From positions 615,905 to 679,904 of the forward strand of contig NZ_LGHP01000001.1 in assembly GCF_001280845.1 (NCBI RefSeq): a DNA stretch of 64,000 bases. The letters run 5' to 3'. The DNA is from Bacillus sp. FJAT-28004. Lineage in GTDB: Bacteria > Bacillota > Bacilli > Paenibacillales > Paenibacillaceae. Positions within the stretch are counted from its first letter, which is position 1. Each line of letters begins with the position of its first letter. Positions 6,498 through 34,296 of the stretch are shown here, in pieces. The notes beneath the pieces were generated by a model. The model searched no databases. It was not told the origin of the DNA and saw only the letters and a program-made list of their open reading frames with translations. Position numbers and translations under genes: made by a program.

Positions 6498-6623
6498 TAT
6501 TTACACTCTCCTCTGTTAAAATAAAAGGAAATAAAAGCTGCAAGCTATGCTATGATGATACTCCGCAGAGAATCGAAGCTCGCGCCTTCCTAAACGGTTT
6601 TCGATAATCGAATTTGTTGTAAA

Positions 6624-6637: not shown

Positions 6638-6652
6638 TATGAAAATATTAAA

Positions 6653-6681
6653 TTGATTCCGCTTTGCCCTAATGATAAAAT
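6653..6681 (+). promoter_or_regulatory. sigma-A promoter of gltB
   Basis: TTGATT and TAAAAT are separated by exactly 17 bp. Transcription would start near 6688 and give a leader of roughly 228 nt. Confidence 0.65.
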
Positions 6682-6727
6682 AACAAGATAATCGCTATGA
6701 CGCGGTAAAGGCCGGGTGTGGTCAATT

Positions 6728-6760
6728 AAACGTTAACGCTCTTAAAAGACGTTGCCGTTT
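6728..6760 (+). other. hairpin in the gltB leader
   Basis: AAACG-TT-AACG pairs with CGTT-GC-CGTTT around an 11-nt loop, giving a nine-pair stem with one 2x2 internal loop. No T tract follows, so it is not a terminator by itself. Confidence 0.5.
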
Positions 6761-6915
6761 AGCTTAGGAATGTCAAGGAGCAGGCCGGTGTGCCTCGCTG
6801 ACTACCATTCTATGATAAAACAAGCCAAAAATGAAGCGTAATGCGTATTCATCAATGCTTAATTTCAACACGTTCACGCTTACCCAAAAATCTTCTCATA
6901 GAAAGGTTGCGCACA

Positions 6916-17734: not shown

Positions 17735-19996
17735 CTATTGCGCCGAAGCAATCTCGATTTGGGCTACTGCTTCCTCTATAACTGGTGTCATAGCGAAGGT
17801 ACGCCCTTGCTGCTGCTCGGCTGGAAGAGAAGCTAGCTGATCGATTCTTCTTTTCACTTCGTTAGAAAGCTCGATAACGTGCTGTGCATATTCTTGTGCT
17901 TTAGCCTCATCTTTTTCAGTAAGAGCCGTTTGGTTTGCTTTGGCATATGAGGTTATTGCAGCTTCATAGAGCTTAATATCCCAAGGGAATTTTTTGACAC
18001 CTTCATTAATAGTTACAAGTGACTCTTCAAAAAGTCCCTTTTCTTGCAGAAAACGATATTCAGACATAAGAAGGCTTCGATTATAAGGATCATATTTTCT
18101 GCCTTCCTTTACAGTAGTAAGAGCTTGGTCAAGGAAAGTAACGGTGTTCGTTTGCTTGTACGCCTGCTCCAGCCAGTCAGCCTTCGTTAATTTATAGTAT
18201 GGCTGCGTTGGTGAAGATTTAATGGCACTATCAAGTATCGGTAGAAGCTCCTCTAAAGAAGTCTGTTGTTTAACCGCTAGATCGATGGCTTTATTATACT
18301 TATTGGTTGCGTTGGTTTCTCGAATAGCAACGATTAGAAGGAATAAAGACAATACAGCGATAACCGCAGGATAAGCAATTTTTGGCCAGGATCGACTGAG
18401 CTTGCCATTCATACCTTCGATAATAAGTTTATGACTATATGGCGCAAGCATACAGCCGAGAGAAATAAAGACGAGAGAGATAATATAAATATAGCTCATA
18501 TCAAAATCGATTACACTGTGGGCTAGCAGCGCTAAAGAAAAAATGAAAAAGATAAAGTGGCTGCCTCTAAGCTCGGGATAACGAATAAAGGATCGAATAT
18601 ATAGAAAATAAACAAATGCAAGCAGTACGATGAGTGAGATTAAACCGATCCAACCGCTCTCTACCAGAACTTGTACAAAGAAGCTATGTGCTTGTCTGCT
18701 CCAATAAGGGTTATTCTGGTATTGCTCAAACATGGACTGCCAAGCGCCGCCTCCGCCACCTAGCAAGGGATAATCCTCTGCAACTCGCAGACCGTCTTTG
18801 TAGAAGGTTAAGCGCTCCAAGACGCTGTGTTGTTGGAGATTAATATTTTCAAAGCGTGCAGCAATTTTATCTGGAAGCAAGCCGCGAATCGCGCTGCTGC
18901 CGAGGAGGCTGACCGCTGCTACAGCAGTAAGTACGATAGTAATGATAGGCACAGCCGCAAACGACCACTTATAGGAAGATAGCTTGGCGAGCTTTGATTC
19001 TAGGAAAGCAGCAGCTTTGGCATGATAAAGCATGATAAGGCTAGTAGTAACGATGAGGCCGAGCAACAGTAATCCCCAGCCCTGCATAGGCAATGAGCTG
19101 AACAAAGAAATTGTACTTGGTGCTTTCGTTTCAGTTGGTTGAACCAGAGTAGCTATTCTATCTGCAACTGTTGTAAGTTTGCCAAGTATAGTCATGGAAA
19201 CCACTACGGATAAGCCCATAAACACGATGTATGTAATCTGCTTCGTTAAGCGTAGAAATGGCAGTACAATTAGCAGCATAACCGGAATAATAACAATTGC
19301 ACCGCGCGAATAGGTAAGCATGAACGAGATCCAAATCGGTACAAGCATTGCAGCGTGAATGATTCTTGCAGAAGGACGCACGCAATGAACAGCATAATAG
19401 AGACTGACTAGAAACAAAGCGACTAGGAAGCCGGCGTATGAATTTGAGTATTGGAAAACCGAAGAAAGACGGTAACCATCATGTGCGAGCCATAGCGCAT
19501 CCTTATAATACATTTGACCGAACAGGTTGAGTAAACCAAATAGAACAATTAAATAAGAGGAGAGCATAACAGCGTATTCGATTGTTTTTCGTGTAAGTTT
19601 ATTTTCTGCAAAATACAGCGCTGCTATGAATAGAGCCGCGAGCAGGAAAAATACGAGAGTCATAAACTTTGCGTAGTAGACTGAAACCGCCTGGAATGAA
19701 GACAACCAATAAATGAATGGAAGAACCATGACGGCAATCGACAAAATCCCACGATAACTGTTGAGCTGCGAGCTGCGGTACACATAGACAGCAGTAAATG
19801 CGAGCATCACGTACCCGAAGATGAGAGCTCCATAAATGGGTCCTTCAAAGCTTAATTCGTAGCCGTTGAACAATGCTTTCTCATAGGGGAAGATTACTAA
19901 AAATAGAGCAATTCCAATGGCCCCAATCCACCTCAAAAGCGCAAAATCAGCATTTAAAGTGTTCGTATTCTTTTTTGATTTGTTTCGTGCACTCAT
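17735..19996 (-). CDS. O-antigen-ligase/Wzy_C-family membrane protein with TPR-like C-terminus
   Basis: A 753-residue protein with about a dozen membrane segments, a large loop and the Wzy_C/WaaL signature around RLTFYKDGLRVAEDYPLLG, GGGGGAW and HSFFVQVLVESGWIG. The last 190 residues are soluble and helical (LLPILDSAIKSSPTQPYYK, EQAYKQTNTVTFLDQALTTV), resembling TPR repeats. Family members polymerise or ligate undecaprenyl-linked glycans; in Gram-positive S-layer glycan clusters such proteins (WsaB/WsfB) are proposed oligosaccharyl:protein transferases. The start is ATG 19996 behind GAGGAG; an in-frame start at 20038 lacks a ribosome site. It is divergent from the AT-rich glycan export genes starting at 20605. 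Confidence 0.85.
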   Translation of the reverse strand: MSARNKSKKNTNTLNADFALLRWIGAIGIALFLVIFPYEKALFNGYELSFEGPIYGALIFGYVMLAFTAVYVYRSSQLNSYRGILSIAVMVLPFIYWLSSFQAVSVYYAKFMTLVFFLLAALFIAALYFAENKLTRKTIEYAVMLSSYLIVLFGLLNLFGQMYYKDALWLAHDGYRLSSVFQYSNSYAGFLVALFLVSLYYAVHCVRPSARIIHAAMLVPIWISFMLTYSRGAIVIIPVMLLIVLPFLRLTKQITYIVFMGLSVVVSMTILGKLTTVADRIATLVQPTETKAPSTISLFSSLPMQGWGLLLLGLIVTTSLIMLYHAKAAAFLESKLAKLSSYKWSFAAVPIITIVLTAVAAVSLLGSSAIRGLLPDKIAARFENINLQQHSVLERLTFYKDGLRVAEDYPLLGGGGGAWQSMFEQYQNNPYWSRQAHSFFVQVLVESGWIGLISLIVLLAFVYFLYIRSFIRYPELRGSHFIFFIFSLALLAHSVIDFDMSYIYIISLVFISLGCMLAPYSHKLIIEGMNGKLSRSWPKIAYPAVIAVLSLFLLIVAIRETNATNKYNKAIDLAVKQQTSLEELLPILDSAIKSSPTQPYYKLTKADWLEQAYKQTNTVTFLDQALTTVKEGRKYDPYNRSLLMSEYRFLQEKGLFEESLVTINEGVKKFPWDIKLYEAAITSYAKANQTALTEKDEAKAQEYAQHVIELSNEVKRRIDQLASLPAEQQQGRTFAMTPVIEEAVAQIEIASAQ

Positions 19997-20604
19997 TCGT
20001 AAGTACTCCTCATCCATCGTTATGTATATATGAAACAATTAGCTTTATTTGTATTTTAGCAAATGGGGGAGTAGATTACTATATTAGAAGAAGGGAATTG
20101 TATGTAGTTTACAAATTTGTAGAATATGAGGGTTTGTCGAAATGGAGATAAAATCGGAAAGATTCTACAATTTATTCGGTGCAAAGGTAGAATAAGGTGT
20201 TAATATGGTAGGAATTTTGGTAAGATAGCAGGGGTGTATAGACATTTTATTAAGAGTTTTGAAGGGCGATCTAGATTAAATCTAACCACAAACCAAATAA
20301 AACTTAAAAATTCTTAGCTGTTCAATTGTATCGTCTTACTAGTCGATATTATTTTGAGAGTAGTTCATTGTTATCAGCTTTTTTTGAGTTTATAGAGTTT
20401 AGATTACTTGTGTTTGCTCTATTAAACCGTGTTTTTGAAGGGCGCGTTAGTCTCAATATCTCATCTTCAAATATTCTTTTATGTTTTACTTTAAACAATC
20501 ATAGTGGTCATATTTTAGTTATTTTTAGTTTATTCGACAATAATAAACTAAATTGAATTACAAATTACACAAAATAATGATAGTGAAAGGCTTGTGTCAA
20601 AAAA
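19997..20604. other. AT-rich intergenic region upstream of the glycan export genes
   Basis: About 600 bases without a convincing gene. The 76-codon frame at 20326-20556 has no ribosome site and low-complexity content. A 12-bp direct repeat TTTTGAAGGGCG occurs at 20257-20268 and 20433-20444. The composition turns strongly AT-rich here and stays so to about 28.6 kb. The promoter of the wzm operon must lie here, but no clear -35/-10 pair was picked. Confidence 0.5.
20257..20444 (+). repeat. pair of 12-bp direct repeats
   Basis: TTTTGAAGGGCG at 20257-20268 and again at 20433-20444. The GGGCG ends stand out in otherwise very AT-rich DNA. Possible leader or operator elements of the export operon, or remnants of an insertion; the function is unknown. 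Confidence 0.45.
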
Positions 20605-21981
20605 ATGAAATTTAAAAATAAATTTAAAAAAATATTATTTTTCATTGTATTGTATATTCTTTCAGTAGTTGCATTGACCACGTTTCTTGAAATACCAGGA
20701 ACAATGAAAATGTACGTGGAGATAGTAAATAGTGATGTAAATGGTTTTCAAGTCTTTTATGCTCAGAAGGAACAAGAATTCACAGAAAAAAACTCGAGTA
20801 GAGATGAATATGAAGCATCTAGAAAAAAAATGAAATTGGACTTTTTAATAGATTCTAATGTAGATAGAATAAGATTTGATTTAGGAGAACACCCAGGAAA
20901 AATAGAAATATCAAGTATTTATTTTAAGCCATTCTTCAAAAAGAATCATTTGTCTATATCATTGGTAGCGAATGAAGTTGGTAATGAAATTAGCAATATT
21001 AAGAAAAATGATGATTACATAGAGATAGTTACAAAAGGACCTGATCCTTTTATTTATTTTCCATTAACAACTGAATTAAGAGAACAAAACATGATTGATA
21101 ACAAGAAATTTAAAACTCTGATCTGTAATTTTGTTGGGTTACTAATCAGCTCGGTTCTCTTTATTTTATTAGTGAAAAGAAGAATAATTATTAGCTTTTA
21201 TGTAGATATATTCAGCAATAGAAGATTAATTTTTAATTTAGCTAAAAATGATTTTAAAACAAAATATGCAGGTTCATATTTGGGTTTTATGTGGGGGTAT
21301 GTTCAGCCTATAGTGACTATACTCGTATATTGGTTTGTTTTTCAAGTAGGTCTTAAGGTCATGCCAGCTGATGAAAATATTCCGTTTGCGATATGGTTTA
21401 TATCAGGTTTGATTCCGTGGTTTTTCTTTGCAGACTCTCTTTCTAATGCTACAAACAGTTTTATAGAATATAGTTTTTTAGTCAAGAAAGTTGTTTTTAA
21501 AATTAGTATTCTTCCAATTGTTAAAATATTGTCTTCATTATTTGTTCATTGTGTATTTTTGATTTTCCTTTATATTGTATATTTATCGTATGGAAATTCA
21601 TTTCATGTTTACAACATACAGTTAATTTATTATTCCTTCTGTACAATACTACTCGTAGTAGGGATTTCATATTTTACTTCTGCAATAGTTGTGTTTTTTA
21701 AAGATTTGGGTCAAATAATATCTATAATTATTCAAGTAGGCATGTGGTTAACTCCTATTATGTGGTCAGAAAAAATTATTAGTGATAGATACAATTGGAT
21801 ATTTAAAATAAATCCAATGTATTATGTTGTACAAGGATATAGAGATTCTCTGTTCTACAAAGCATGGTTTTATGAAAATATCTATCTTACACTGTGGTTT
21901 TGGTTTTTTACTATTATGATGTTTTTACTAGGTGTATTTATATTTAAAAAACTAAAGCCACATTTTGCTGATGTGCTGTGA
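20605..21981 (+). CDS. wzm: polysaccharide ABC exporter permease (Wzm/TagG type) with N-terminal extension
   Basis: A 458-residue protein, about 190 residues longer than usual Wzm/TagG permeases. Residues about 9-30 form a membrane segment, about 31-165 a soluble, probably extracytoplasmic domain (containing RIRFDLGEHPGKIEISSIYF, which looks like a beta-rich carbohydrate-binding-type strand pattern), and about 170-190 a second membrane segment. The ABC-2 domain begins near 204 (KNDFKTKYAGSYLGFMWGY, IWFISGLIPWFFFADS, NPMYYVVQGYRDSL). It should move an undecaprenyl-linked glycan across the membrane with the ATPase at 22001. ATG 20605 has a weak GAAAGG 14 bases upstream. It is AT-rich like the next three genes. 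Confidence 0.88.
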   Translation: MKFKNKFKKILFFIVLYILSVVALTTFLEIPGTMKMYVEIVNSDVNGFQVFYAQKEQEFTEKNSSRDEYEASRKKMKLDFLIDSNVDRIRFDLGEHPGKIEISSIYFKPFFKKNHLSISLVANEVGNEISNIKKNDDYIEIVTKGPDPFIYFPLTTELREQNMIDNKKFKTLICNFVGLLISSVLFILLVKRRIIISFYVDIFSNRRLIFNLAKNDFKTKYAGSYLGFMWGYVQPIVTILVYWFVFQVGLKVMPADENIPFAIWFISGLIPWFFFADSLSNATNSFIEYSFLVKKVVFKISILPIVKILSSLFVHCVFLIFLYIVYLSYGNSFHVYNIQLIYYSFCTILLVVGISYFTSAIVVFFKDLGQIISIIIQVGMWLTPIMWSEKIISDRYNWIFKINPMYYVVQGYRDSLFYKAWFYENIYLTLWFWFFTIMMFLLGVFIFKKLKPHFADVL

Positions 21982-22000
21982 TGGATTGGGGAATGTTATT

Positions 22001-23275
22001 ATGAATGAAAGTGTTGCGATATCAATTCAGAGTGTTTCAAAAGTATATAAGCTCTATAATAAAGCAACTGATCGCCTAATAGAGGCACTCAATCCTTTTT
22101 CAAAAAAAAGACACAAAGATTTTCATGCACTGAAAAATATTTCATTGCAAATTAATAAAGGTGAAACCATTGGTTTCATCGGAAAAAATGGTGCTGGAAA
22201 ATCGACAATACTGAAAGTGATTACTGGGATTTTAACACCTACACAAGGCAACGTAGATGTAAGTGGGAAAATATCGGCACTTCTTGAATTGGGAGCTGGC
22301 TTCAATCCTGAATATACAGGACTAGAAAATATATATTTATACGGATCTATGATGGGAATAACTAAAGAAGAAATTGGCGGAAAAATAGATTCAATTCTCG
22401 GCTTTGCAGATATTGGTGATTTCATCCATCAGCCAGTCAAATCGTATTCTAGTGGAATGTTTGTTCGACTTGCTTTTGCTTGCGCTGTTAATGTTGAACC
22501 TGAAATATTAATAATAGATGAGGCGTTAAGTGTAGGTGATATAAGATTTCAGCAAAAATGTTATAGAAAAATAAGAGAGTTTAAAGAAAAAGGAACAGTA
22601 TTGTTTGTTAGTCACGATCTTGGAGCAATATCTAACTTCTGTGATAGGGTAGTTTGGTTTAATGAAGGTGAAATCTATAAAGATGGAGCACCTGGGGATA
22701 TTATAGATGAATATCATGCATTTATGACTTATGATACAATTCTGAATGATCTAAATGATACTGAAGATAAAGAGAATATTATGATATCTCAAGGAAATTC
22801 ATTCTCCAACGATTCTCAAGTATTTGGAGAAATGGGTGCAGAAATAGTAGATGCAAAACTATTGAATTATTTAGGAACTGAAAATGGCTATATTACAGGT
22901 GGAGAAAAAGTTCAATTAATTGTTAGAGTTTTTGCGAGAGAAAGTCTGTTAATGCCGATAATTGGGTTTGTTTTGAAGGATAGAATAGGAAATTCGATAG
23001 TGATTATGAACACAGAAATAGAAAATATGGAGATCAGACCAATTTTAATTAATAAGACTTATGTTTTTAAATGGAATTTTCAGTTTCCCATGATACGAGA
23101 TGGTGTATACAGTCTGGATTTAGCAATTGCTGATGGTACTTACGAACAACATGTGCAGCACCATTGGATTAGCGATGCATTATTAGTAGATGTAAGAAAT
23201 AAGAAAACTTATCCAACGGCACATGGTTTTTGTATATTAGGAAATGTTGGAATGACACAAACGATTGAGGAATAA
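22001..23275 (+). CDS. wzt: polysaccharide ABC exporter ATPase with C-terminal glycan-binding domain (Wzt)
   Basis: A 424-residue protein. The N-terminal nucleotide-binding domain has Walker A GKNGAGKST, ALLELGAGFNPEYTG (characteristic of Wzt/TagH ATPases), signature YSSGMFVRLAFA and Walker B ILIIDEALSVGD. The C-terminal part (about 260-424) matches the Wzt-C carbohydrate-binding beta-sandwich, with VQLIVRVFARESL and YSLDLAIADGTYEQH. In O9a-like systems this domain recognises the modified chain end before export, which fits a capping methyltransferase encoded next door. The start is ATG 22001 (GGGGA, 9 bases upstream); an in-frame start at 21965 overlaps wzm and is less likely. Confidence 0.92.
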   Translation: MNESVAISIQSVSKVYKLYNKATDRLIEALNPFSKKRHKDFHALKNISLQINKGETIGFIGKNGAGKSTILKVITGILTPTQGNVDVSGKISALLELGAGFNPEYTGLENIYLYGSMMGITKEEIGGKIDSILGFADIGDFIHQPVKSYSSGMFVRLAFACAVNVEPEILIIDEALSVGDIRFQQKCYRKIREFKEKGTVLFVSHDLGAISNFCDRVVWFNEGEIYKDGAPGDIIDEYHAFMTYDTILNDLNDTEDKENIMISQGNSFSNDSQVFGEMGAEIVDAKLLNYLGTENGYITGGEKVQLIVRVFARESLLMPIIGFVLKDRIGNSIVIMNTEIENMEIRPILINKTYVFKWNFQFPMIRDGVYSLDLAIADGTYEQHVQHHWISDALLVDVRNKKTYPTAHGFCILGNVGMTQTIEE

Positions 23276-23296
23276 TTTTTATATTTGGAGGTAATT

Positions 23297-26200
23297 ATGG
23301 AGTTTACAGGGGAACGCTTCGTACCAGAGATAGCTTCTGGAGAAATAGAAATTGAGCATAAACAAAGATATTATTCAGTCCTTGAACTGATAAAAGATAA
23401 AGTAGTCCTTGATGCTGCTTGTGGTGTTGGTTACGGTACTTCTCTAATGTCTGACTTTGCACAGTTTGTATATGGAATTGATATTTCTAATGAATCAATT
23501 AAATTAGCGGAAGAAGAATATGGTACATCGAATACGAAGTTTATTGAAGCAAGCATAGAAAAAATCCCATTGCCAAGTCATTCTATTGATGTTGTAGTAA
23601 GTTTTGAGACCATAGAGCATGTGAATGAAGAGATTCAAGTAAGTTTTATGAATGAAATAAAGAGATTACTAAAACCAAATGGAATTTTAATAATTTCTAC
23701 TCCTGACAAGCTCAATTATTCTGATGTACCAAAGTTCAGAAATAGTTTCCATATCAAAGAGTTTTACTTTAATGAGTTTCAGTTGTTTTTAACTAAATAC
23801 TTTGCAAACGTTCAGATGTTCAATCAAGGATTTGAAACTCTTAGCGTACTTAACCATGTAGATAATAATATGAAAACTAATACCAAGTATAAACTAATTG
23901 ATCCGAAAGATCTTACAAATATCAACAGAAAATACATCGTAGCAGTATGCTCGGAAACAGATATTCCTCATCTTGACTCTTTTGGGAATATGATGATTTT
24001 TAAAGAAAATCCTAATTTTACAAGTAAACTATTGGTTGATTTTGGTGAAGGTTATCATAAGGATATAACTGTGTTTGCTGATTTGATTATAAAGGGAAAT
24101 GAATTTCGAGTGGAATTTATTAATTTAAATCAATTACAAGGTGTAATTCGTTATAAATGGATCCCTTTACAAGATCGAATTGTGAAATTGAATATCTCCA
24201 ATGTATTTCCAAAACTTTCTTTAACACCTTTAAATGCATGGAGTAGCCGTGAAGGTTATGATGAGTTTCATGATTATATGCCTCAATATGAAATTATTAA
24301 TACATACGGTAGAGTGGATAGGATAATAGTAACTGGAGATATAACTATATTAGATGAGAATTCAATATTTCAAGAAATGATGTATAGAGTTAATACACTA
24401 GAATCTACTTTAAAAGAACAAAGACAATTAGATCGTATAGAAAGTAAATTTAATAATATCTCAGATTCTGTTTTATCTAAACTAGTGAATTTAGAAACTG
24501 AAAAAATAGAACTGCTAGAATCAAATGAAAAAATAATGTTGGAAAATAAAAAGCTTCACGAAAATGCGGAGAGTATGTTAGCGGATTTTAACAACGAAGT
24601 TGTTTCATTGAGGAATTTGGTTAATCAAACTATTAACGAAAGAAACAATTTGTTTCATGAAAGAAATCATATACTATCTGTTAATACAGAATTAAACGAA
24701 ACAATTAATAGTTTGATTCGTTCAGAATCATGGAGAATTACATCTCCTCTTAGATATACAGCTAGGAACATTAAAGCTTTTATTGCGTTTATTAAAAAAA
24801 TATTAAAAAAAATTGTCAAAACAACGTATCATTATTTTCCTGTTAATAAAGAAACTAAACAAAAGATAAAAGATATGATATATAAAAAGATGAGTTTTTT
24901 GATTAAAAACACAGGAATGTATAAAATCTGGCTTGAATCTAAAAGGGAATTAACATTACAGGAGAACAAGTTTGGATTATTAGGTGATTCTACGTTTGGG
25001 TCTGTGGAAAATTTTAATGAGCAACCGGGTAAAATCGCTGTTCATTTGCATTTGTATTACGTAGATTTATTGGATGAGTTCTTTGAGTATTTTTGTAATA
25101 TTCCTTATGACTTTGATCTTTATGTTTCTATTCAACATGAGGATAAAAAGATAGAAGTTGAAAAGAAATTAAGTAGTATACAACATTTGAAAAAAATAAT
25201 GGTTAAGGTAACACCGAACCGTGGAAGAGATGTTGCACCCATGTTTGTTGATTTTGGAGAATATCTATCAGAATATAATTATGTGAGCCACGTTCACTCG
25301 AAGAAATCATTATATACAGGTACTCAACAAGATGGTTGGCGAAAACATTTGCTAGATAACTTATTCGGGAACCAGTTAGTGATAAAAAAGCTTTTTTCAT
25401 TATTTAATAGTCACAAGGAGTTAGGATTAATTTATCCTGAAACTTATCAATCTATTCCTTATTGGGCGCACACTTGGCTTTCAAATAAAATGATTGGTTC
25501 CAGTTTGTTAAGTAGGATGGGAATAAAACATGATTTCTCACAGTATATTGATTTTCCAGCGGGCACTATGTTTTGGGCTAAAGTAGAAGCACTTAAACCA
25601 TTGTTTGATCTAGGTTTGACTTATAATGATTTTGATGAGGAAAATAAACAAATCGATGGTACTATTGCTCATGCTATTGAAAGAGCTATTATACCTATTG
25701 TAACAAGTACAGGAAATGGCTATGCCGAAATAAATGTATTGAATGATGTGTGTAGATTTAACAAGGGAAGTCGTAATTTAATGCAATACTGGCCTAGGAA
25801 ACTGAATGAATTAAAAGATATTATCGATGGCATCGATATTATTACTTTTGATATATTTGATACATTAATAACTCGTCCACTACTTTCACCGGATACTGTA
25901 TTCAAAATGATTGCAAAAGAAAATGAATCATTTTTTGGAAATCCAATTGATTATATTAATATGAGAAAAGAAGCGGAATCTGAGGTAAGGAAGAGTAAAA
26001 ATTATATTGGAGATTGCTCTATTGATGAGATATACGAAAAAATGTCTCAACTATATGATTTAGCTCCTAGCCTATGTGAAAAATTGAAATATATTGAGAT
26101 TGATAATGAAATTAAACTTTGTATGCCAAGAAAAGAAGTCATTGAGATTTTAAATTATTCACGTATTAAAAATAAAAGAATCATATTAATTAGTGATATG

Positions 26201-27640
26201 TACTTAGATGTGAAAACAATTGAGAGAATGTTAGCAAAGTGTAATATTAATTATTATGATGAATTATTAGTATCTTCAAAATTGCAAAAGAGAAAAGATA
26301 ACGGACAAATGTGGGATTATTTCAAAAGCAACTATGAGGGTCGAAAAACTCTTCATATAGGTGATAATGAACATTCTGATGTTCAAATTCCTGAAGATAA
26401 AGGACTACTTACTTATCATGTAATGAATGGTGCTAATATGTTTTATAATACTGACTTTGGGAATTATATTGGAAAAGAAGTTTTGATGAATGATAATTGG
26501 GGAGATTCGGCATTAATCGGGCCTATTGTTGCTAAGGAGTTTAATAGTCCATTTAAACTTTCTAATACTAATGGTGTTTATCAAATTACAAGTTTGAATA
26601 AATTAGGATACATAATTTTCGGACCTATTCTATTGCACTTTGTCATTTGGCTGATTAAGAAAACTAAAGAAGATGAAATTGATAATGTTTTATTTCTTGC
26701 TAGAGAGGGTTTTCTACTTAAAAAATTATTTGACAAATCTTATTCTAATTTGAAAACAAGTGCGAAACTAAATGATATTTCTAGTATTTATTTCTTAACT
26801 TCAAGACGAGCTGCTTCAGTTGCGAGCTTGAAGAATATAGAAGATATATATTACTTATTACAAACGCCGTTCGAGGGTACAATCAGTGATTTGTTGAAAG
26901 TTAGATTTGGGTTGATTTTGAACAATGCAGATCTTGATAAAAAGATAAATATGCCTGATGACATTGAGAATGTAAAGAATCTAATTGAAAAATATACTGA
27001 ACAGATCTTAGCAATTGCTGAAGAAGAAAGAGCAGTTTATTTAGAATATTGTAAATCATATGAACTTGATGGTAAAAAGAATGCTATTGTAGATGTTGGA
27101 TATTCAGGAAGTATACAACTATACTTATCGAAGTTGTTAAATCAATCAACAAGTGGTTATTATTTTGTAACAAGTAATAATTCTAAAGGTACTGCTTTTA
27201 GTGGGAATATTATGAATGGATATTTCGGTGAAAACGAAAATTATCTTACATCTAAGAGTGCAGTTTATAAATATCAGTTAATTTTAGAAAGCATACTGAC
27301 CTCAGATCAAGGCCAATTTATTAATTTCATTAAAGATATGGATGGGAAATTGATCCCTAACTTCGGAGTTAAGGGGTTTGCACAGCAAAATTTTGAGAAT
27401 CTTAAAGAAATAATGGATGGAATAGAGCAGTATTTTGAGGATGTTCTTAAGATACAAGGGGATCTCATTTTAGAGATGCCTACTTCAAAAAGTGTTGTTG
27501 AGAAATTATTAGATTCTATAATGATCTTTGATAATTTGGTCTCTGAAGAGATAAAACAATTATTTTTAGTTGAAGATACCTATTGTTTATCTGACGAGAT
27601 ATCTGTTTTTACACATTATAAGCGATGGTTTGGTCTATGA
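23297..27640 (+). CDS. multidomain glycan enzyme: methyltransferase - coiled coil - RgpF-like - HAD (COG5610-like)
   Basis: A 1447-residue protein. Residues about 1-230 are a class I SAM-dependent methyltransferase (VVLDAACGVGYG near 36, SFETIEHV, LLKPNGILIISTP). About 365-480 is a coiled coil (LESTLKEQRQLDRIESKF, with further heptads). About 570-830 matches the RgpF rhamnan-synthesis family (HLHLYYVDLLDEFF, VTPNRGRDVAPM near 640, HVHSKKS, FPAGTMFWAK). About 845-1060 is a HAD-like domain with DxD at D852-I-F-D855, then LISDMYL and HIGDNEHSDV. The tail (about 1090-1447; LFLAREGFLLKKLF, VDVGYSGS) matches the C-terminus of the COG5610 predicted hydrolases. It probably extends and terminally methylates the chain, comparable to multidomain WsaE of S-layer glycan clusters. 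The start is ATG 23297 after TTGGAGGT. Confidence 0.85.
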   Translation: MEFTGERFVPEIASGEIEIEHKQRYYSVLELIKDKVVLDAACGVGYGTSLMSDFAQFVYGIDISNESIKLAEEEYGTSNTKFIEASIEKIPLPSHSIDVVVSFETIEHVNEEIQVSFMNEIKRLLKPNGILIISTPDKLNYSDVPKFRNSFHIKEFYFNEFQLFLTKYFANVQMFNQGFETLSVLNHVDNNMKTNTKYKLIDPKDLTNINRKYIVAVCSETDIPHLDSFGNMMIFKENPNFTSKLLVDFGEGYHKDITVFADLIIKGNEFRVEFINLNQLQGVIRYKWIPLQDRIVKLNISNVFPKLSLTPLNAWSSREGYDEFHDYMPQYEIINTYGRVDRIIVTGDITILDENSIFQEMMYRVNTLESTLKEQRQLDRIESKFNNISDSVLSKLVNLETEKIELLESNEKIMLENKKLHENAESMLADFNNEVVSLRNLVNQTINERNNLFHERNHILSVNTELNETINSLIRSESWRITSPLRYTARNIKAFIAFIKKILKKIVKTTYHYFPVNKETKQKIKDMIYKKMSFLIKNTGMYKIWLESKRELTLQENKFGLLGDSTFGSVENFNEQPGKIAVHLHLYYVDLLDEFFEYFCNIPYDFDLYVSIQHEDKKIEVEKKLSSIQHLKKIMVKVTPNRGRDVAPMFVDFGEYLSEYNYVSHVHSKKSLYTGTQQDGWRKHLLDNLFGNQLVIKKLFSLFNSHKELGLIYPETYQSIPYWAHTWLSNKMIGSSLLSRMGIKHDFSQYIDFPAGTMFWAKVEALKPLFDLGLTYNDFDEENKQIDGTIAHAIERAIIPIVTSTGNGYAEINVLNDVCRFNKGSRNLMQYWPRKLNELKDIIDGIDIITFDIFDTLITRPLLSPDTVFKMIAKENESFFGNPIDYINMRKEAESEVRKSKNYIGDCSIDEIYEKMSQLYDLAPSLCEKLKYIEIDNEIKLCMPRKEVIEILNYSRIKNKRIILISDMYLDVKTIERMLAKCNINYYDELLVSSKLQKRKDNGQMWDYFKSNYEGRKTLHIGDNEHSDVQIPEDKGLLTYHVMNGANMFYNTDFGNYIGKEVLMNDNWGDSALIGPIVAKEFNSPFKLSNTNGVYQITSLNKLGYIIFGPILLHFVIWLIKKTKEDEIDNVLFLAREGFLLKKLFDKSYSNLKTSAKLNDISSIYFLTSRRAASVASLKNIEDIYYLLQTPFEGTISDLLKVRFGLILNNADLDKKINMPDDIENVKNLIEKYTEQILAIAEEERAVYLEYCKSYELDGKKNAIVDVGYSGSIQLYLSKLLNQSTSGYYFVTSNNSKGTAFSGNIMNGYFGENENYLTSKSAVYKYQLILESILTSDQGQFINFIKDMDGKLIPNFGVKGFAQQNFENLKEIMDGIEQYFEDVLKIQGDLILEMPTSKSVVEKLLDSIMIFDNLVSEEIKQLFLVEDTYCLSDEISVFTHYKRWFGL

Positions 27641-27669
27641 TAAAAGGCATTTATGATAAGAGGCGAAAA

Positions 27670-28644
27670 ATGAGGTCTACAATTATTATTCCAAATTATA
27701 ACGGGTTAGAGTATTTGGCTAATTGTTTAAGTGCTTTATCTAAAGAAGTAGATGTTAGTCTGGATGAAGTAATTATTGTGGATAATTCTTCTACTGATAA
27801 CAGTGTTCGATTTATTGAGTCAACTTACCCATTCATCAAACTAATTGTATTAGATAAAAATTATGGTTTTTCAAGTGCAGTAAATGAAGGAATTCGTGCT
27901 GCGAATAGTGATTACATAATTTTGTTAAATAACGATACAGAAGTATGTGACGGTTGGTTAAATAGTTTGATAGATTCTATTGAAAACAATCCTGGTGTTT
28001 TTTCAGTGAGTAGTAAAATGATTCAATGCAATAATAAACAGTTTATAGATGATGCTGGTGACGGACTTACACTAATTGGTTGGGCATATAAAAGAGGTGA
28101 TGGTAAACCGGTCAGTCAGTTTACTAAGCAAGAACAAGTTTTTAGTGCTTGTGCTGGTGCAGCTATTTATCGAAAAAGCATGTTAGATCAAATAGGTTAC
28201 TTTGACGAAACATTCTTTGCATATTTAGAAGATGTAGACATTGGATATAGAGCTAAAATTTACGGGTTTGTAAATCTATTTTGTCCTGAAGCAAAGGTAT
28301 ACCATATAGGAAGTGCAACGAGTGGTGGAGGAGAAAAAGGTATTAATTCGTTTAAAGTAAGATTAAGCGCTAGAAATAACATTTATTTGTTTTATAAGAA
28401 TATGCCATATATTCAGCTCATACTTAATTTCCCTTTTTTATTAATAGGAATTATTTGGAAAAATGTATCATATCATCGACGCGGTTATGGGAAAGATTTT
28501 TATGAAGGTACAATTGAAGGAATTAAAAATTGCAAGAAAATTCAGAGAGTGAATCATAGACTAATATACCTTGAAAACTACTTTAGGATTCAGATTGACC
28601 TTATTAATGACACGTTTAAATATTTTATCGGGAGGTTTATATGA
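27670..28644 (+). CDS. GT2 family glycosyltransferase
   Basis: A 324-residue inverting GT-A glycosyltransferase. STIIIPNYNG opens the fold, IVDNSSTDNS and LLNNDTEV form the nucleotide/metal site, and FFAYLEDVDIGYRAKIYG is the acceptor-side ED motif typical of rhamnosyltransferase-like WcaA/WbbL relatives. The C-terminal 80 residues contain a hydrophobic stretch (IQLILNFPFLLIGIIW) likely to hold it to the membrane. The start is ATG 27670 behind AAGAGG; ATG 27637, which overlaps the upstream stop (ATGA), would add 11 residues and lacks a good site. Its stop overlaps rfbA (ATGA). Confidence 0.9.
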   Translation: MRSTIIIPNYNGLEYLANCLSALSKEVDVSLDEVIIVDNSSTDNSVRFIESTYPFIKLIVLDKNYGFSSAVNEGIRAANSDYIILLNNDTEVCDGWLNSLIDSIENNPGVFSVSSKMIQCNNKQFIDDAGDGLTLIGWAYKRGDGKPVSQFTKQEQVFSACAGAAIYRKSMLDQIGYFDETFFAYLEDVDIGYRAKIYGFVNLFCPEAKVYHIGSATSGGGEKGINSFKVRLSARNNIYLFYKNMPYIQLILNFPFLLIGIIWKNVSYHRRGYGKDFYEGTIEGIKNCKKIQRVNHRLIYLENYFRIQIDLINDTFKYFIGRFI

Positions 28645-29384
28645 AAGGTATAATTCTTGCAGGAGGAACAGGCTCACGTCTATTCCCACTTACAAAAGTA
28701 ACAAATAAACACTTACTTCCAGTAGGGAAGTACCCTATGATATTTCATTCTATTGCAAAGCTTAAAGAATCGGATATCATCGATATCCTCATTGTTACTG
28801 GTAAAGATCATATGGGAGATGTTGTGAATTTACTCGGTAGTGGCCATGAATTCGGTGTATCTTTTACATATAAAGTTCAGGACGAAGCAGGTGGAATCGC
28901 ACAGGCACTCGGATTGGCTGAAAATTTTGTGAATGGCGACCAAATGGTCGTTATTCTAGGTGATAACGTATTTGATGACAGTATTGCTCCATTCGTCAGC
29001 AACTTTAAAAAGCAAAATAAGGGAGCAAAAATTCTTATTCAAGAGGTTCACGATCCTCAGCGTTATGGTGTACCTGAATTGGATGGGGATAAGATCGTTT
29101 CTATTGAAGAGAAACCTAAACAACCAAAGAGCAGCTACGCAGTTACAGGTATATATATGTATGATAGTAATGTTTTTGAAATCGTTAAAACGCTTAAACC
29201 ATCAGGTCGCGGAGAGCTTGAAATTACGGATGTAAATAATGCATATATTGAAGCAGGCGAGCTTAGTTATGATATTCTCCACGGATGGTGGACGGATGCG
29301 GGTACTCATGCTTCGTTGACGAAAGCAAATGAGCTTGCGAAAGAACTTACGTTTGGCGAAGAATTCGGTAAACTAAAATTATAA
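28641..29384 (+). CDS. rfbA: glucose-1-phosphate thymidylyltransferase
   Basis: A 247-residue short-type RmlA/RfbA forming dTDP-glucose from glucose-1-phosphate and dTTP, the first step to dTDP-L-rhamnose. The signature LAGGTGSRLFPLTKVTNK carries the catalytic Gly-rich loop; LGDNVFDD holds the metal Asp, followed by IEEKP and VTGIYMYD. It overlaps the preceding GT gene by 4 bases, with GGGAGG in the latter's end. Base composition returns towards the chromosomal average within this gene. Confidence 0.95.
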   Translation: MKGIILAGGTGSRLFPLTKVTNKHLLPVGKYPMIFHSIAKLKESDIIDILIVTGKDHMGDVVNLLGSGHEFGVSFTYKVQDEAGGIAQALGLAENFVNGDQMVVILGDNVFDDSIAPFVSNFKKQNKGAKILIQEVHDPQRYGVPELDGDKIVSIEEKPKQPKSSYAVTGIYMYDSNVFEIVKTLKPSGRGELEITDVNNAYIEAGELSYDILHGWWTDAGTHASLTKANELAKELTFGEEFGKLKL

Positions 29385-29399
29385 AAAAATAGGTGACAT

Positions 29400-29957
29400 A
29401 TGAAAATAATAGATTCGAAGCTTCCAGGAGTTAAGTTGCTAGAACCTGCCGTATTTGGTGATCACCGTGGTTTCTTTATGGAAAGCTATAATGAAGAAGT
29501 AGCCCGTGCCAATGGAATTCCATACGCTTTTATTCAAGACAACCATTCCCTATCAGTAGAAGCCGGTGTACTTAGAGGCATGCACTATCAATTGTCTCCT
29601 AAAGCGCAAACAAAACTCGTTCGTGTTACTGCCGGGGCAATCTACGATGTTGTAATTGATATTCGTAGAGGCTCACCAACATTTGGACAATGGCAAGGTT
29701 TTATTCTGAGTGCAGCCAATAAACGTCAGTTGCTTGTTCCACAGGGCTTTGCACATGGATTTTGTACGCTCGTTCCAAATAGTGAGGTTCAGTATAAGGT
29801 TGATGCCCTATACTCCCCCGAACACGACCGCGGCATCGCCTGGAACGATCCGCTACTTGCAATCGACTGGCCGACATCGACACCGATTTTATCGGATAAG
29901 GATGGCAAGCATCCAGTGCTTGCTGATGCGGAAATCAACTTTGTATATGAAGGGTGA
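29400..29957 (+). CDS. rfbC: dTDP-4-dehydrorhamnose 3,5-epimerase
   Basis: A 185-residue cupin-fold RmlC. Hallmarks are GDHRGFFMESYNE, QDNHSLS, VLRGMHYQ (catalytic His), YDVVIDIRRGSPTFGQW and PQGFAHGFCTL. It converts dTDP-4-keto-6-deoxyglucose to the L-lyxo isomer. ATG 29400 follows TAGGTGA, 15 bases after rfbA, in one operon. Confidence 0.96.
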   Translation: MKIIDSKLPGVKLLEPAVFGDHRGFFMESYNEEVARANGIPYAFIQDNHSLSVEAGVLRGMHYQLSPKAQTKLVRVTAGAIYDVVIDIRRGSPTFGQWQGFILSAANKRQLLVPQGFAHGFCTLVPNSEVQYKVDALYSPEHDRGIAWNDPLLAIDWPTSTPILSDKDGKHPVLADAEINFVYEG

Positions 29958-29966
29958 GTTAGATTC

Positions 29967-30989
29967 GTGAAATTACTAGTTACCGGCGGTGCCGGCTTTA
30001 TTGGCAGCAACTTTGTATTATATATGATTAAGAACTATCCAAATTACGAAATCATTAATGTTGATGCGCTCACCTACGCGGGCAATCTCGAAAACCTGCG
30101 CTCGATTGAGCAGCATTCTAAACATACCTTCGTGAAAGCAGATATTGCGCAACGAAGTGAATTAGAGCCATTGTTCCAACAAGGCGTGGATGCTGTCATT
30201 AACTTTGCAGCAGAATCACATGTGGATCGCAGTATTTTGCATCCGGAGATTTTCGTACAAACGAACATTCTTGGTACTCAGACGCTGCTAGATCTCACAA
30301 AGCAATATAACGTAACTAAATTTGTACAAGTTTCTACGGATGAAGTGTACGGTACGCTGGGCGAGACTGGTCTTTTCACTGAAGATACACCGATTGCGCC
30401 AAATAGTCCTTATTCTGCAAGCAAAGCTGGAGCGGATCTGCTCGTTAGGGCTTATCACGAAACGTTCGGATTAAACGTCAATATAACACGCTGCTCCAAT
30501 AACTATGGTCCATATCAGTTCCCTGAGAAACTAATTCCATTGATGATCCAGAACGCGCTTCAAGATAAGCCGCTCCCAGTATACGGCGACGGACTTAATG
30601 TGCGCGATTGGCTGTATGTAGAGGATCACTGCAGCGCCATTGATCTGGTTTTGCATAAAGGCGTTAATGGTGAAGTTTACAATGTAGGTGGACGCAACGA
30701 GCGAAACAATCTGCAGGTTGTTCGTACCATTCTTGAAGAACTCGGCAAGCCGGAGACGCTTATCACTTATGTGAAGGATCGTCTTGGTCATGACCGCAGA
30801 TATGCGATTGATGCAGACAAGATCCGTAATGAATTAGGCTGGCAGCCGAAGTTCAACTATGAGGATGGAATCAAGGAAACGATTCGTTGGTATCTAAGCA
30901 ATACGGAGTGGATGGAGCAGGTTGCATCAGGCTCGTATCAACAGTACTACGACACCCAGTACAAGGATCGCCTGGAGGCGAAAGAATAA
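29967..30989 (+). CDS. rfbB: dTDP-glucose 4,6-dehydratase
   Basis: A 340-residue extended SDR enzyme. The NAD site is VTGGAGFIGSNFV; TDEVYG and SPYSASKAGADLL carry the active-site residues (Thr, Asp/Glu, Tyr-x3-Lys). It removes water from dTDP-glucose in the second step of rhamnose synthesis. The start is GTG 29967 (AGGGTGAG upstream), 9 bases after rfbC. Confidence 0.96.
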   Translation: MKLLVTGGAGFIGSNFVLYMIKNYPNYEIINVDALTYAGNLENLRSIEQHSKHTFVKADIAQRSELEPLFQQGVDAVINFAAESHVDRSILHPEIFVQTNILGTQTLLDLTKQYNVTKFVQVSTDEVYGTLGETGLFTEDTPIAPNSPYSASKAGADLLVRAYHETFGLNVNITRCSNNYGPYQFPEKLIPLMIQNALQDKPLPVYGDGLNVRDWLYVEDHCSAIDLVLHKGVNGEVYNVGGRNERNNLQVVRTILEELGKPETLITYVKDRLGHDRRYAIDADKIRNELGWQPKFNYEDGIKETIRWYLSNTEWMEQVASGSYQQYYDTQYKDRLEAKE

Positions 30990-30990
30990 T

Positions 30991-31839
30991 ATGTCTAAAT
31001 TAAAAATCGTTATTACTGGAGCGAATGGGCAGCTCGGTCGAGAATTAACGCAGTGGACGACGGATACCGCAGAAATCATCGGATTAAGTCGTAGTGAGCT
31101 TGATATTACGAGTCTCCCTGCATGCCGAAATTTATTTTCGATTCATCGCCCTGATGTTGTCATACACTGCGCTGCCTATACAGCAGTAGATAAAGCCGAG
31201 TCCGAGCCGGACGAGGCTTTTCGTGTGAATGCAGCTGCAACACGCAATGTAGCGGTAGCTGCTCGTGAGATCGGTGCAAAGCTTTGTTATATAAGCACCG
31301 ATTATGTTTTTGATGGAAGCAGCAATGTCCCTTACAATGAGTACGATCGGATCAATCCTCAAACGGTGTATGGAAAGTCGAAATATGCAGGTGAACAAGC
31401 AGTTCAGACTCTTCATGATCGCTTCTACATCGTTCGGACATCATGGGTATACGGGAAATACGGCAACAATTTTGTGAAAACGATGCTGAAAATGGCAGGA
31501 GAACGCGATAAGCTCAAAGTAGTTGCAGATCAAATCGGATCGCCAACTTACACCTATGATCTTGCAGCTTTTTTGCTAGAGCTTGTTCAAACTGATTATT
31601 TTGGTATTTACCATGCATCAAATAGCGGAGTTTGCTCTTGGTTTGAATTTGCTAATGCTATTTTTGACGACAGCGGCACCGCTATTTTAGTAGAGCCTTG
31701 CACGACTGCTGACTTCCCAAGACCAGCGCCGAGACCTGCATATTCGGTTATGGATCATACTGCTATTCGCAGTAACGGACTTAACATGCTTCGTCCGTGG
31801 AGAGAAGCACTTAACCACTATCTCAAAGACAGTGAGTGA
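30991..31839 (+). CDS. rfbD: dTDP-4-dehydrorhamnose reductase
   Basis: A 282-residue RmlD. It has ITGANGQLGREL (NADPH loop), CAAYTAVDKAE, STDYVFDG and YGKSKYAGEQ (catalytic Tyr/Lys), then RTSWVYG. It makes dTDP-L-rhamnose. ATG 30991 follows GGAGGCGAAAG and lies one base after the rfbB stop; an in-frame ATG at 30922 would overlap rfbB by 68 bases and is rejected. The gene order A-C-B-D equals that in known S-layer glycan clusters. Confidence 0.96.
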   Translation: MSKLKIVITGANGQLGRELTQWTTDTAEIIGLSRSELDITSLPACRNLFSIHRPDVVIHCAAYTAVDKAESEPDEAFRVNAAATRNVAVAAREIGAKLCYISTDYVFDGSSNVPYNEYDRINPQTVYGKSKYAGEQAVQTLHDRFYIVRTSWVYGKYGNNFVKTMLKMAGERDKLKVVADQIGSPTYTYDLAAFLLELVQTDYFGIYHASNSGVCSWFEFANAIFDDSGTAILVEPCTTADFPRPAPRPAYSVMDHTAIRSNGLNMLRPWREALNHYLKDSE

Positions 31840-31847
31840 TAAATGTA

Positions 31848-32792
31848 ATGCCAACAGTTAGCGTTTGTATCGTGACCTATAATAGTGCGAAAGACATCCA
31901 GACCTGTTTGCAAGCGGTTCAGAAGCAAAGCATCCCTGTAGAGCGCATTGTCGTCATCGATAATGCCTCAACCGATGGAACGGCTGAACAAGTGAAGCCT
32001 TTTGCAGAGCAGGTTCATTTCATAGCGAACGAAGTGAACAATGGGTTTGCCGGCGGCCAAAATCAAGCTATTCGTGAAACAAGCTCGGATTATGTTCTTG
32101 TTCTGAATCCGGATGTGACGTTGGACCCGAATTATTTAAAAGAAATTATTGGTTTTATGGAACAAAAGCCGACGGTTGGAAGTGCAACCGGACGGCTTGT
32201 TTTTGCGTCTAATAAAGAAGTCATGGATAGTGCTGGGATAGGAATGAAACGCACTCGAAATGCATATGATCTTGCCGCAGGAGATCAGGCAGTTGACTGG
32301 AATACAACACAAGCTGTATTTGGTGTATCTGGTGCGGCAGCGGTATATCGAACGGCTATGATTCGTGATATCGAGTTTGACGGTGAGTTTTTTGATGAGC
32401 ATTTTTTTGCATATAAGGAAGACGTAGATGTGGCATGGCGAGCGAAGAAGCTAGGTTGGACCTCTTATTACATACCTGCTGCGAATGCGCTTCATCATAG
32501 AGGGTGGAAAAAGGGAAGTAGAAGCAATGTTCCGCTTTTTGTACGTCAGCATTCCTATCAAAACCGTTTTTTCACCCTAATAAAAAACGAACCTATTGGT
32601 TGGCACTCCCTATTGATTGGGCCGTTGATACTCGCAACAGAAACCGTGAAGCTTGGTTATATTATTTTGCGGGAGCCTGGATTGTTACGATGTTGGTCTA
32701 CTATTGTAAAGTTGCTTCCAAGTATGCTCGAGAAACGCAAATGGATTCAAAATAAGGTTAAACAAAAACAACGGATTAATCCCATCAAATAA
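31848..32792 (+). CDS. GT2 family glycosyltransferase (rhamnosyltransferase-like)
   Basis: A 314-residue GT-A enzyme. VSVCIVTYNSAKD, VIDNASTDGT, NNGFAGGQNQAI and VLNPDVTLDPNYL are the nucleotide-sugar site; VFGVSGAAAVYR and FFAYKEDVDVAWRAKKLGW the acceptor region; C-terminal hydrophobic stretch near WHSLLIGPLILATETV. The strong NxGFAGGxNxAI pattern is shared with rhamnosyltransferases of the WbbL/RfbN kind. ATG 31848 is chosen (AGTGAGTGA upstream); GTG 31836, overlapping the rfbD stop, is an alternative. Coupling to rfbD fits use of dTDP-rhamnose. Confidence 0.9.
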   Translation: MPTVSVCIVTYNSAKDIQTCLQAVQKQSIPVERIVVIDNASTDGTAEQVKPFAEQVHFIANEVNNGFAGGQNQAIRETSSDYVLVLNPDVTLDPNYLKEIIGFMEQKPTVGSATGRLVFASNKEVMDSAGIGMKRTRNAYDLAAGDQAVDWNTTQAVFGVSGAAAVYRTAMIRDIEFDGEFFDEHFFAYKEDVDVAWRAKKLGWTSYYIPAANALHHRGWKKGSRSNVPLFVRQHSYQNRFFTLIKNEPIGWHSLLIGPLILATETVKLGYIILREPGLLRCWSTIVKLLPSMLEKRKWIQNKVKQKQRINPIK

Positions 32793-32889: not shown

Positions 32890-34296
32890 ATGCTAAGGCA
32901 AAACCAACGGTTTTTGACGCAATTATATATGTTGGCGGATTTATCCTGCACATTGGTCGTTTTTATGGCCGCTTATTGGCTTAAATTTTATAGCGGCTTG
33001 CTGCCAAGCTATAACTCCGTATCGTTCTCAACCTATTTATTATGGGGAACGATTTATTCATTTTCAGCAGTGCTAATAGGCTTTTACTTTCAGTTTTATT
33101 CGCCAAAACGACGTAAAAATTATTCCTACGAAGTGCTGCGTATTTTACAGATTCAAACGATCAGCTTTCTTGGATTGCTCAGCTTGTTCTTCTTCACGCG
33201 TGAAGTACATATATCTCGAGAATTTCTAGCGATTTTCTTTTTCATGAATTTTATTGCCATTGCGTCTTACCGATATTGGGTGAAATCGATCCTCGCTTCT
33301 TTCCGGCGCAAAGGCTTTAATAAACGTTTTGTACTTATCGTTGGTGCGGGCTCAGTGGGACGCAGTTTTTATTCGAACCTACAGCAGCATCCGGATCTTG
33401 GTTATGAGGTTGTCGGTTTTCTGGATGATTATCAAGAGGAGCATGCACTTGAGCATCAATATATGAAGCCGATTATCGGCAGGCTTGACGCTTTAAAGCA
33501 GAAGCTGGATAAGATGCCTATTGATGAAGTAATCATTGCTCTGCCTCTCGAAGCTCATGCAAAGTATGCGGAAATTATTGAAATTTGTGAGCGGACTGGC
33601 GTTAAGACGCTGATCATCCCTGATTTCTTTGATCTGCTGCCGGCGCGGCCATTTTTTGATAATTTTGCCGGCATCCCGCTTATTAATGTAAGAGATATTC
33701 CGCTCGATGAGCTAAGCAATCGTATATTGAAACGTTGGTTCGATATCGCTTTTTCATTAGTTGCGATTCTTATAACTTCACCCATTATGCTGTTTACCAT
33801 TATAGGACTTAAGCTGACCTCGCCTGGTCCAGTATTGTTCAAGCAGGAACGAATGGGGCTCGATCGCAAAACCTTCCATATGTTTAAGTTCCGATCTATG
33901 CATGTATCGACGGATACCGTATCCAACACGCAGTGGACAGTGGAGAACGATCCGCGCCGCACCAAATTTGGTAGCTTCCTGCGTCGCACGAGTCTGGATG
34001 AGCTGCCGCAGTTTTTTAATGTACTGCTTGGTCATATGAGCGTTGTTGGACCAAGACCGGAACGGCCATATTTTGTTAATCAGTTCAAAGAAGAAATTCC
34101 TAAATATATGGTTAAGCATCAGATTAGACCTGGGATAACAGGCTGGGCACAAACCAATGGCTTAAGAGGCGATACTTCCATACAAGACCGCATTATGTTT
34201 GATATTTTTTATATTGAAAATTGGACTTTTTTCTTTGATCTTAAAATTATTTTTAAAACGGTACTGAAGGGCTTGATTAACAAAAATGCTTACTAA
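32890..34296 (+). CDS. undecaprenyl-phosphate sugar-1-phosphate transferase (WcaJ/WsaP-type)
   Basis: A 468-residue polyprenyl glycosylphosphotransferase. There are four N-terminal membrane segments, a Rossmann-like CoA_binding_3 domain (VLIVGAGSVGRSFY), then a fifth membrane segment (FDIAFSLVAILITSPIMLF). The catalytic PglC-like domain has SPGPVLFKQERMGLD, FHMFKFRSM, RRTSLDELPQFFNVL and SVVGPRPERP. It transfers hexose-1-phosphate (glucose or galactose) from a UDP-sugar to undecaprenyl phosphate, the first step of chain assembly. ATG 32890 with GGGTGA upstream. A 97-base gap after the GT gene may hold a promoter, but none was convincing. Confidence 0.93.
   Translation: MLRQNQRFLTQLYMLADLSCTLVVFMAAYWLKFYSGLLPSYNSVSFSTYLLWGTIYSFSAVLIGFYFQFYSPKRRKNYSYEVLRILQIQTISFLGLLSLFFFTREVHISREFLAIFFFMNFIAIASYRYWVKSILASFRRKGFNKRFVLIVGAGSVGRSFYSNLQQHPDLGYEVVGFLDDYQEEHALEHQYMKPIIGRLDALKQKLDKMPIDEVIIALPLEAHAKYAEIIEICERTGVKTLIIPDFFDLLPARPFFDNFAGIPLINVRDIPLDELSNRILKRWFDIAFSLVAILITSPIMLFTIIGLKLTSPGPVLFKQERMGLDRKTFHMFKFRSMHVSTDTVSNTQWTVENDPRRTKFGSFLRRTSLDELPQFFNVLLGHMSVVGPRPERPYFVNQFKEEIPKYMVKHQIRPGITGWAQTNGLRGDTSIQDRIMFDIFYIENWTFFFDLKIIFKTVLKGLINKNAY

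Follow-up and report, generated by a model that had tools for sequence, protein, structure and literature searches.

What does a protein of 1447 residues do that joins a methyltransferase, a coiled coil, an RgpF domain and a HAD-type tail in one chain and is encoded amid the export and rhamnose genes of a bacterial glycan cluster? We addressed this question for the open reading frame (ORF) at 23297..27640 on the + strand of a 64,000-nucleotide stretch of Bacillus sp. FJAT-28004 DNA (contig NZ_LGHP01000001.1, positions 615,905 to 679,904; henceforth the window, to whose numbering coordinates refer unless another locus is named). The first-pass annotation, made from the sequence alone, had seen in it a machine that polymerises and terminates a rhamnan-type glycan, with a HAD domain of no settled role. 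Our analysis leads to a related reading that we consider probable: a one-chain polymerase-terminator for a methyl-capped glycan of rhamnose (Rha) and ribofuranose (Ribf), exported by Wzm/Wzt and likely of the S-layer type.

Module order of the fusion

The ORF can start at a TTG (23285) or at an ATG (23297) and stops at 27640; since a GGAGG precedes the ATG at a distance of 5 bases, the 1447-residue protein first annotated is the likely product, and the ORF, its relatives and structural models agree on the following order. An S-adenosylmethionine (SAM)-dependent methyltransferase (MT; residues 1-220, 23297..23956), a candidate chain-terminating O-methyltransferase, is followed by an all-beta domain (residues 230-351, 23984..24349), a 121-residue heptad helix (residues 354-474, 24356..24718), a basic amphipathic stretch at the base of the coil (residues 485-516, 24749..24844), an RgpF (PF05045) glycosyltransferase domain with a GT-A-like fold (residues 560-803, 24974..25705), a HAD domain assigned as phosphoribose phosphatase (PRP; residues 846-1045, 25832..26431) and a domain assigned as glycan phosphoribosyltransferase (gPRT; residues 1060-1447, 26474..27637), all on the + strand. 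The motifs named at first pass were located (VLDAACGVGYG at 37-47, NRGRD at 641-645, HVHSKKS at 665-671 and FDIFDT at 851-856), and Pfam, NCBIfam and the models broadly bear out that methyltransferase, coiled coil, RgpF and HAD share one chain; the beta domain and the basic stretch had gone unmentioned.

The C-terminal tail as a probable ribofuranosyltransferase module

The HAD domain and what had been called a COG5610-like tail are instead recognisable as a PRP-gPRT module, predicted from its sequence to be a ribofuranosyltransferase dependent on phosphoribosyl pyrophosphate (PRPP). First, the tail profile matched Bcs3, the capsule polymerase of Haemophilus, at E = 1.5e-47, and a ribofuranosyltransferase of solved structure, 7SHG, at E = 2.1e-38, while the HAD assignment itself came from NCBIfam (HAD-IA, 2.3e-7) and at only 0.047 from Pfam (PF00702). 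Second, the main active-site motifs of such modules are retained: PRP motifs I to IV, with a DxF-type motif I, comprise D852 (49 of 50 aligned sequences) and T856, D967, K1000, D1023 and D1028 (50 of 50), and the PRTase-like gPRT that directly follows carries the PRPP-binding motifs R1136-E1137-G1138, S1169-R1170-R1171 and D1266, in which the R, S-R and acidic positions vary little or not at all across the same 50 sequences. Third, all seven untruncated proteins of this architecture retain the PRP-gPRT motifs. On this basis a Rha/Ribf polymer is predicted in place of a pure rhamnan. We had also considered a synthase of pure rhamnan whose HAD domain had no explanation, and dropped this reading after the PDB profile match.

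The RgpF domain itself (Pfam, E = 3.6e-60) covers only positions 252-499 of the 503-position profile; for comparison, a separate RgpF protein at another locus (L054) spans positions 7-496. Within it, the stretch YVSHVHSKKS (residues 662-671) includes H667, retained in 50 of 50 aligned sequences, and H665, retained in 47; we take this stretch to sit where GT2 enzymes usually have DxD. As rml genes lie in the cluster, the donor is presumably dTDP-L-rhamnose (dTDP-Rha).

The N-terminal half as candidate terminator and spacer

Pfam places Methyltransf_11 at residues 38-133 (E = 6.4e-22) and finds no kinase in the fusion. An AlphaFold model of residues 1-511 (predicted local distance difference test, pLDDT, 85.4; predicted template modelling score, pTM, 0.52) resolves the methyltransferase (1-220), an all-beta domain (about 230-351) whose strands mostly reach a pLDDT of about 90, and one helix (354-474), and the matches listed for this model by Foldseek and VIA were methyltransferases or methyltransferase-like chains. 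Pfam assigned the beta domain to no family, and a sequence search of the PDB gave nothing credible for it (one match, E = 0.99, was taken as chance); it is possibly carbohydrate-binding and recurs in methyltransferase proteins that lack RgpF. The idea that it is a copy of the neighbouring Wzt_C domain found no support in hhalign (alignment A4 against one Wzt sequence, probability 0.1), which is a weak test. In one relative, P0138, the beta domain appears by eye to be present twice.

The heptad-rich stretch noted at first pass is borne out by the single modelled helix and by hydrophobic periodicity, the best period being 3.50-3.52 in seven of seven tested proteins of this architecture, with a power that 0 to 27 of 1000 shuffles per protein reached. 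Measured from where the coil begins up to the SWR motif, the span was 120 residues in four of six proteins, 126 in a fifth and 145 in the sixth, two of eight having been left out for want of the motif as written. After the helix, a candidate ruler, residues 485-516 hold eight K/R and no D/E within 32 residues and are, by likeness to WbdD, a candidate membrane-contacting stretch and anchor.

Relatives and distribution

Among the best 120 by similarity of 366 protein relatives, six (P0002, P0003, P0004, P0006, P0007 and P0008) match from end to end at 41-79% identity, and the fusion is therefore no product of chance or assembly; P0005 matches to residue 1142 and ends there, within gPRT. The three organism-named proteins among these relatives come from Paenibacillus, and sources that name such proteins mostly call them "rhamnan synthesis F family protein" or something close to it. 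Fusions of methyltransferase and RgpF are not unique as a class: Methyltransf_11 and RgpF occur together in 28 of the 120 (own protein included; Pfam column read by hand). RgpF runs collinearly into gPRT in all 120, with 119 extending to residue 1355 or beyond, and the RgpF-PRP-gPRT module is found elsewhere alone or joined to GT2, radical-SAM or TPR parts. Two proteins, P0018 and P0020, join a radical-SAM domain (PF04055), RgpF and the PRP-gPRT tail, perhaps equipping this polymerase module with a different kind of modification.

In genome searches, whose counts are lower bounds as the large searches scored part of the first-look candidates, the full module was present in the own genome alone among 51 of the genus (any match in six), in two of 392 of the order (own included) and in two of 398 of the phylum (own included; any match in seven, own included), and a scan of genome contigs gave one relative only. 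The only two other genomes with the full module in these samples are G868, of another genus of the family, and G337, of another family of the phylum. G868 encodes a 1447-residue homologue at a locus (L057) ordered as ligase-like gene, wzm, wzt, fusion, GT2, rmlB, rmlD, two GT2 genes and an initiating transferase; no rmlC was seen within its 19.5 kb, and on the far side of the ligase-like gene there is an rmlA-like piece. The two fusions are 58-69% identical in their catalytic parts, 40% in the coil and 37% in the beta domain, and the adjoining GT2 enzymes (27625..28644 in the window) share 59% identity. The G337 locus (L046) encodes a 1336-residue MT-coil-RgpF-PRP-gPRT protein in which no beta domain was matched, together with wzm, wzt, rmlABCD, an initiating transferase and a ligase-like protein (25% identity) in a different order. 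Ligase-like relatives also occur at L047-L049, L051, L054, L055 and L057, and none was matched at L001, L050, L052 and L053.

Across 29 loci of other genomes, a methyltransferase relative was present in 24 and a PRP-gPRT match in five; in the 24, wzt lay within the 1.5-kb flanks in 19 and a GT2 domain in the methyltransferase's frame in 12. Two relatives from the family (1111 and 1157 residues) carry methyltransferase, GT2 and GT4-type domains and fit WsaE, set against the description of that enzyme only. A further combination, a 1382-residue methyltransferase-WbsX glycosyltransferase-RgpF fusion, is encoded next to wzm/wzt and rml genes in a different genome of the phylum (L053, 3810-7955). 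At L051 two different stand-alone PRP-gPRT-like proteins (2803-4869 and 6570-8723) flank a single wzm/wzt pair and perhaps serve two ribofuranose linkages in one glycan; genes of ligase-like and rmlA-like type are close by.

The surrounding gene cluster

The setting of the fusion is that of S-layer glycan clusters: wzm/wzt lie on one side of it and the rml genes on the other, and the cluster also encodes an initiating transferase and a ligase-like protein. Upstream on the + strand are wzm (20605..21981, ABC-2 permease, PF01061, 3.7e-16) and wzt (21965..23275), whose ABC ATPase domain (PF00005, 5.3e-24) is followed by a carbohydrate-binding Wzt_C domain at residues 285-423 (PF14524, 3.3e-26). 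Downstream on the same strand come a GT2 gene overlapping the 3' end of the fusion (27625..28644, PF00535, 4.7e-30), the dTDP-L-rhamnose supply genes rmlA-like, rmlC, rmlB and rmlD (28641..31839), a second GT2 gene (31836..32792, PF00535, 6.7e-28), an initiating polyprenyl glycosyl-1-phosphate transferase of the WsaP/WbaP type (32890..34296; Bac_transf 3.8e-69, CoA_binding_3 2e-27) and a third GT2 gene (34286..35257, PF00535, 2.5e-21). The rmlC, rmlB and rmlD products exceed their NCBIfam cut-offs, and the rmlA-like product scores 244.4 bits, under its cut-off of 360.65. A divergent gene (17735..20038, - strand) encodes a 767-residue Wzy_C O-antigen-ligase-like membrane protein (Pfam, 8.4e-14), a candidate glycan ligase in the role of WsaB in slg clusters. 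The genome has 150 SLH domain matches, which is no more than permissive for an S-layer-type glycan. G+C content is 27-33% in wzm, wzt, the fusion and the first GT2 gene versus 42% for the window, which fits exchange of the central part of the cluster, and the low-G+C block (20001-28000) looks like an exchanged one. Adjoining the cluster, bactofilin and M23 peptidase genes stand side by side (16093-17558, - strand).

Comparison with characterised glycan systems

The order of a terminator-type N-terminal domain, an extended coiled coil and a polymerase part is evident from Pfam, the models and the heptad period. A close likeness in layout is to Klebsiella pneumoniae O7 ORF6 (MT, kinase, carbohydrate-binding module, coiled coil, GT2, GT2; PMC11231755), whose N-terminal terminator likewise includes a methyltransferase, with a beta domain ahead of the coil and polymerase modules after it, and whose system, like the one predicted here, uses dTDP-Rha and PRPP to make a polymer of Rha and Ribf for Wzm/Wzt export. 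Unlike the fusion, ORF6 has a kinase and two GT2 domains and leaves ribose transfer to a separate ribofuranosyltransferase, ORF7; the fusion has RgpF where ORF6 has GT2, and carries a ribose module in the same chain. WsaE of Geobacillus stearothermophilus (PMC2943079), also from Bacillota, likewise joins a methyltransferase to two transferase functions, in a slg cluster that shares the order wzm-wzt-wsaE with rml downstream, a WsaP-type initiator and a ligase. By its description, however, the product of WsaE is a pure rhamnan and two of its domains are rhamnosyltransferases, whereas one sugar-nucleotide-type glycosyltransferase domain (RgpF) was found in the fusion.

The second half of the fusion matches, in sequence and fold, Bcs3 of Haemophilus influenzae b (PMC10299916; 8a0c, 8a0m), with the same order of transferase, PRP and gPRT, but in Bcs3 the first transferase is a GT-B ribitol-phosphate transferase and the ribose-holding acids are swapped; unlike the cap proposed here, its pathway is described as having no chain-terminating residue (PMC11231755), and the description of Bcs3 used here names neither a methyltransferase nor a coiled coil. 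7SHG, from Thermobacillus composti, is PRP-gPRT over nearly its full chain and has the same REG and D(V)G motifs, but is a two-domain protein of 648 residues without RgpF or methyltransferase. The candidate ruler between terminator and polymerase side has a counterpart in the coiled-coil ruler of WbdD of E. coli O9a, which differs in its kinase plus methyltransferase and separate polymerase WbdA, and in that of WbbB of Klebsiella O12, which has its polymerase in the same chain (PMC11231755) and terminates with Kdo. For C. difficile SLCT-11, also from Bacillota, ribofuranose has been published in connection with an S-layer glycan cluster whose genes are similar (PMC6254364).

The polymerise-and-terminate part of the first-pass annotation thus holds by comparison, on the terminator-type domain, coil spacer and polymerase modules in one chain within a Wzm/Wzt rhamnose cluster, and loses its novelty, the logic being already published for WsaE (PMC2943079), WbbB and O7 ORF6 (PMC11231755), and Bcs3 (PMC10299916). 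As for the suggestion that the architecture may be undescribed, no paper joining MT, coil, RgpF, PRP and gPRT was found in the open-licence PMC literature, although the survey by Kelly et al. 2022 may list RgpF-PRP-gPRT. Later papers cite that survey for the PRP-gPRT family.

Proposed mechanism and alternatives

In the scheme that we propose, whose linkage, acceptor and activities we infer, the nearby initiating transferase and GT2 enzymes would build a lipid-linked primer to which RgpF would add L-rhamnose from dTDP-Rha; gPRT would then add ribofuranose-5-phosphate from PRPP, and PRP would remove the 5-phosphate so that the next sugar could be added. The basic amphipathic stretch would probably keep the polymerase half at the membrane, and the helix, whose roughly 121 residues at 0.15 nm each give a length of about 18 nm if it is straight, would hold the methyltransferase away, such that only long enough chains reach it and are ended by methylation. 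Wzt_C would recognise the capped end for export by Wzm/Wzt, and the ligase-like protein may then attach the glycan. A C-terminal glycan-binding domain in Wzt is not needed in all coiled-coil terminator systems. That one chain does all of this, alternating dTDP-Rha- and PRPP-dependent transfers, dephosphorylating, anchoring itself, measuring by its 18-nm coil and methyl-capping, with a beta domain that may read the chain end, is a tentative proposal to which we give somewhat less than an even chance; it would make the fusion the fullest glycan assembly machine in a single chain so far.

Several observations count against the scheme. The PRP-gPRT pair superimposes on 7SHG with a high root-mean-square deviation (12.1 A), and the domain orientation therefore differs or is wrongly modelled. 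The ribose-holding acids D680/E818, reported by the Bcs3 authors in all homologues they identified (PMC10299916), are swapped here (E1137/D1266), a swap common to 7SHG and the fusion, and the alignments place A1135 and S1174 at Bcs3 S678 and R712. A Vibrio capsule cluster has a 677-residue RgpF/HAD protein and a polymer described as containing Rha and glucose, with no ribose (PMC11641403); thus RgpF plus HAD alone is no proof of ribose. The PF05045 match is limited to the C-terminal half of the profile, and dTDP-Rha as its donor is read from the rml genes only. The scheme does not explain the beta domain, the coil span varies, and three further GT2 genes could share in polymerisation. Finally, methylation by WsaE in vitro does not depend on how long the chain is (PMC2943079), and a methyltransferase of this kind therefore need not count.

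It is unlikely, in our judgement, that RgpF-PRP-gPRT decorates a backbone polymerised by separate GT2 enzymes with ribofuranose branches, or contributes a single adaptor sugar. The three GT2 genes would suit such a division of labour, as would the ribofuranose branch on rhamnose of the SLCT-11 S-layer glycan (PMC6254364), but an alpha linkage is reported for that branch, and the linkages made by known PRP-gPRT enzymes are beta. The collinearity of RgpF, PRP and gPRT in the best 120 of 366 relatives (P0005 ending within gPRT) also counts against this reading, and the Bcs3 polymerase likewise joins two transferases (PMC10299916). We also regard as improbable that the methyltransferase decorates internal sugars and the helix is only an oligomerisation scaffold, while Wzt, supply or some other factor sets chain length: the varying coil span is compatible with this, but characterised terminators place the terminating domain across a coiled coil (PMC11231755), Wzt_C is present and the span is 120 in four of the six proteins.

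Less probable still is a WsaE-like enzyme for pure rhamnan whose PRP-gPRT has lost PRPP use or works with another donor. Between wzm and the last GT2 gene no sugar-nucleotide genes other than those for rhamnose were found, although PRPP is a housekeeping metabolite and the cluster therefore cannot show ribose, and some PRPP contacts of Bcs3 differ, as the residues at A1135 and S1174 illustrate; the near-invariance of the phosphatase motifs and PRPP-site positions, and their retention in the seven proteins, argue the other way. Finally, a functionless artefact or decayed gene is scarcely credible: the patchy distribution (own genome alone in the genus sample, two genomes in the order sample) could suggest it, but the six end-to-end relatives, the synteny at L057, the intact motifs and the ribosome-binding site contradict it.

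Implications

If the one-chain polymerase-terminator is as we propose, the HAD/COG5610-like tail of "rhamnan synthesis F family" proteins becomes a testable ribofuranosyltransferase, and Rha/Ribf polymers are predicted wherever the RgpF-PRP-gPRT module and rhamnose genes occur together. Since a single chain would hold the terminator, the spacer and both transferases, the ruler idea becomes testable through one gene with no recruited partner. The relatives also give a hint about evolution, as the same type of methyltransferase near wzm/wzt bears GT2-GT4, RgpF-PRP-gPRT or no transferase at all.

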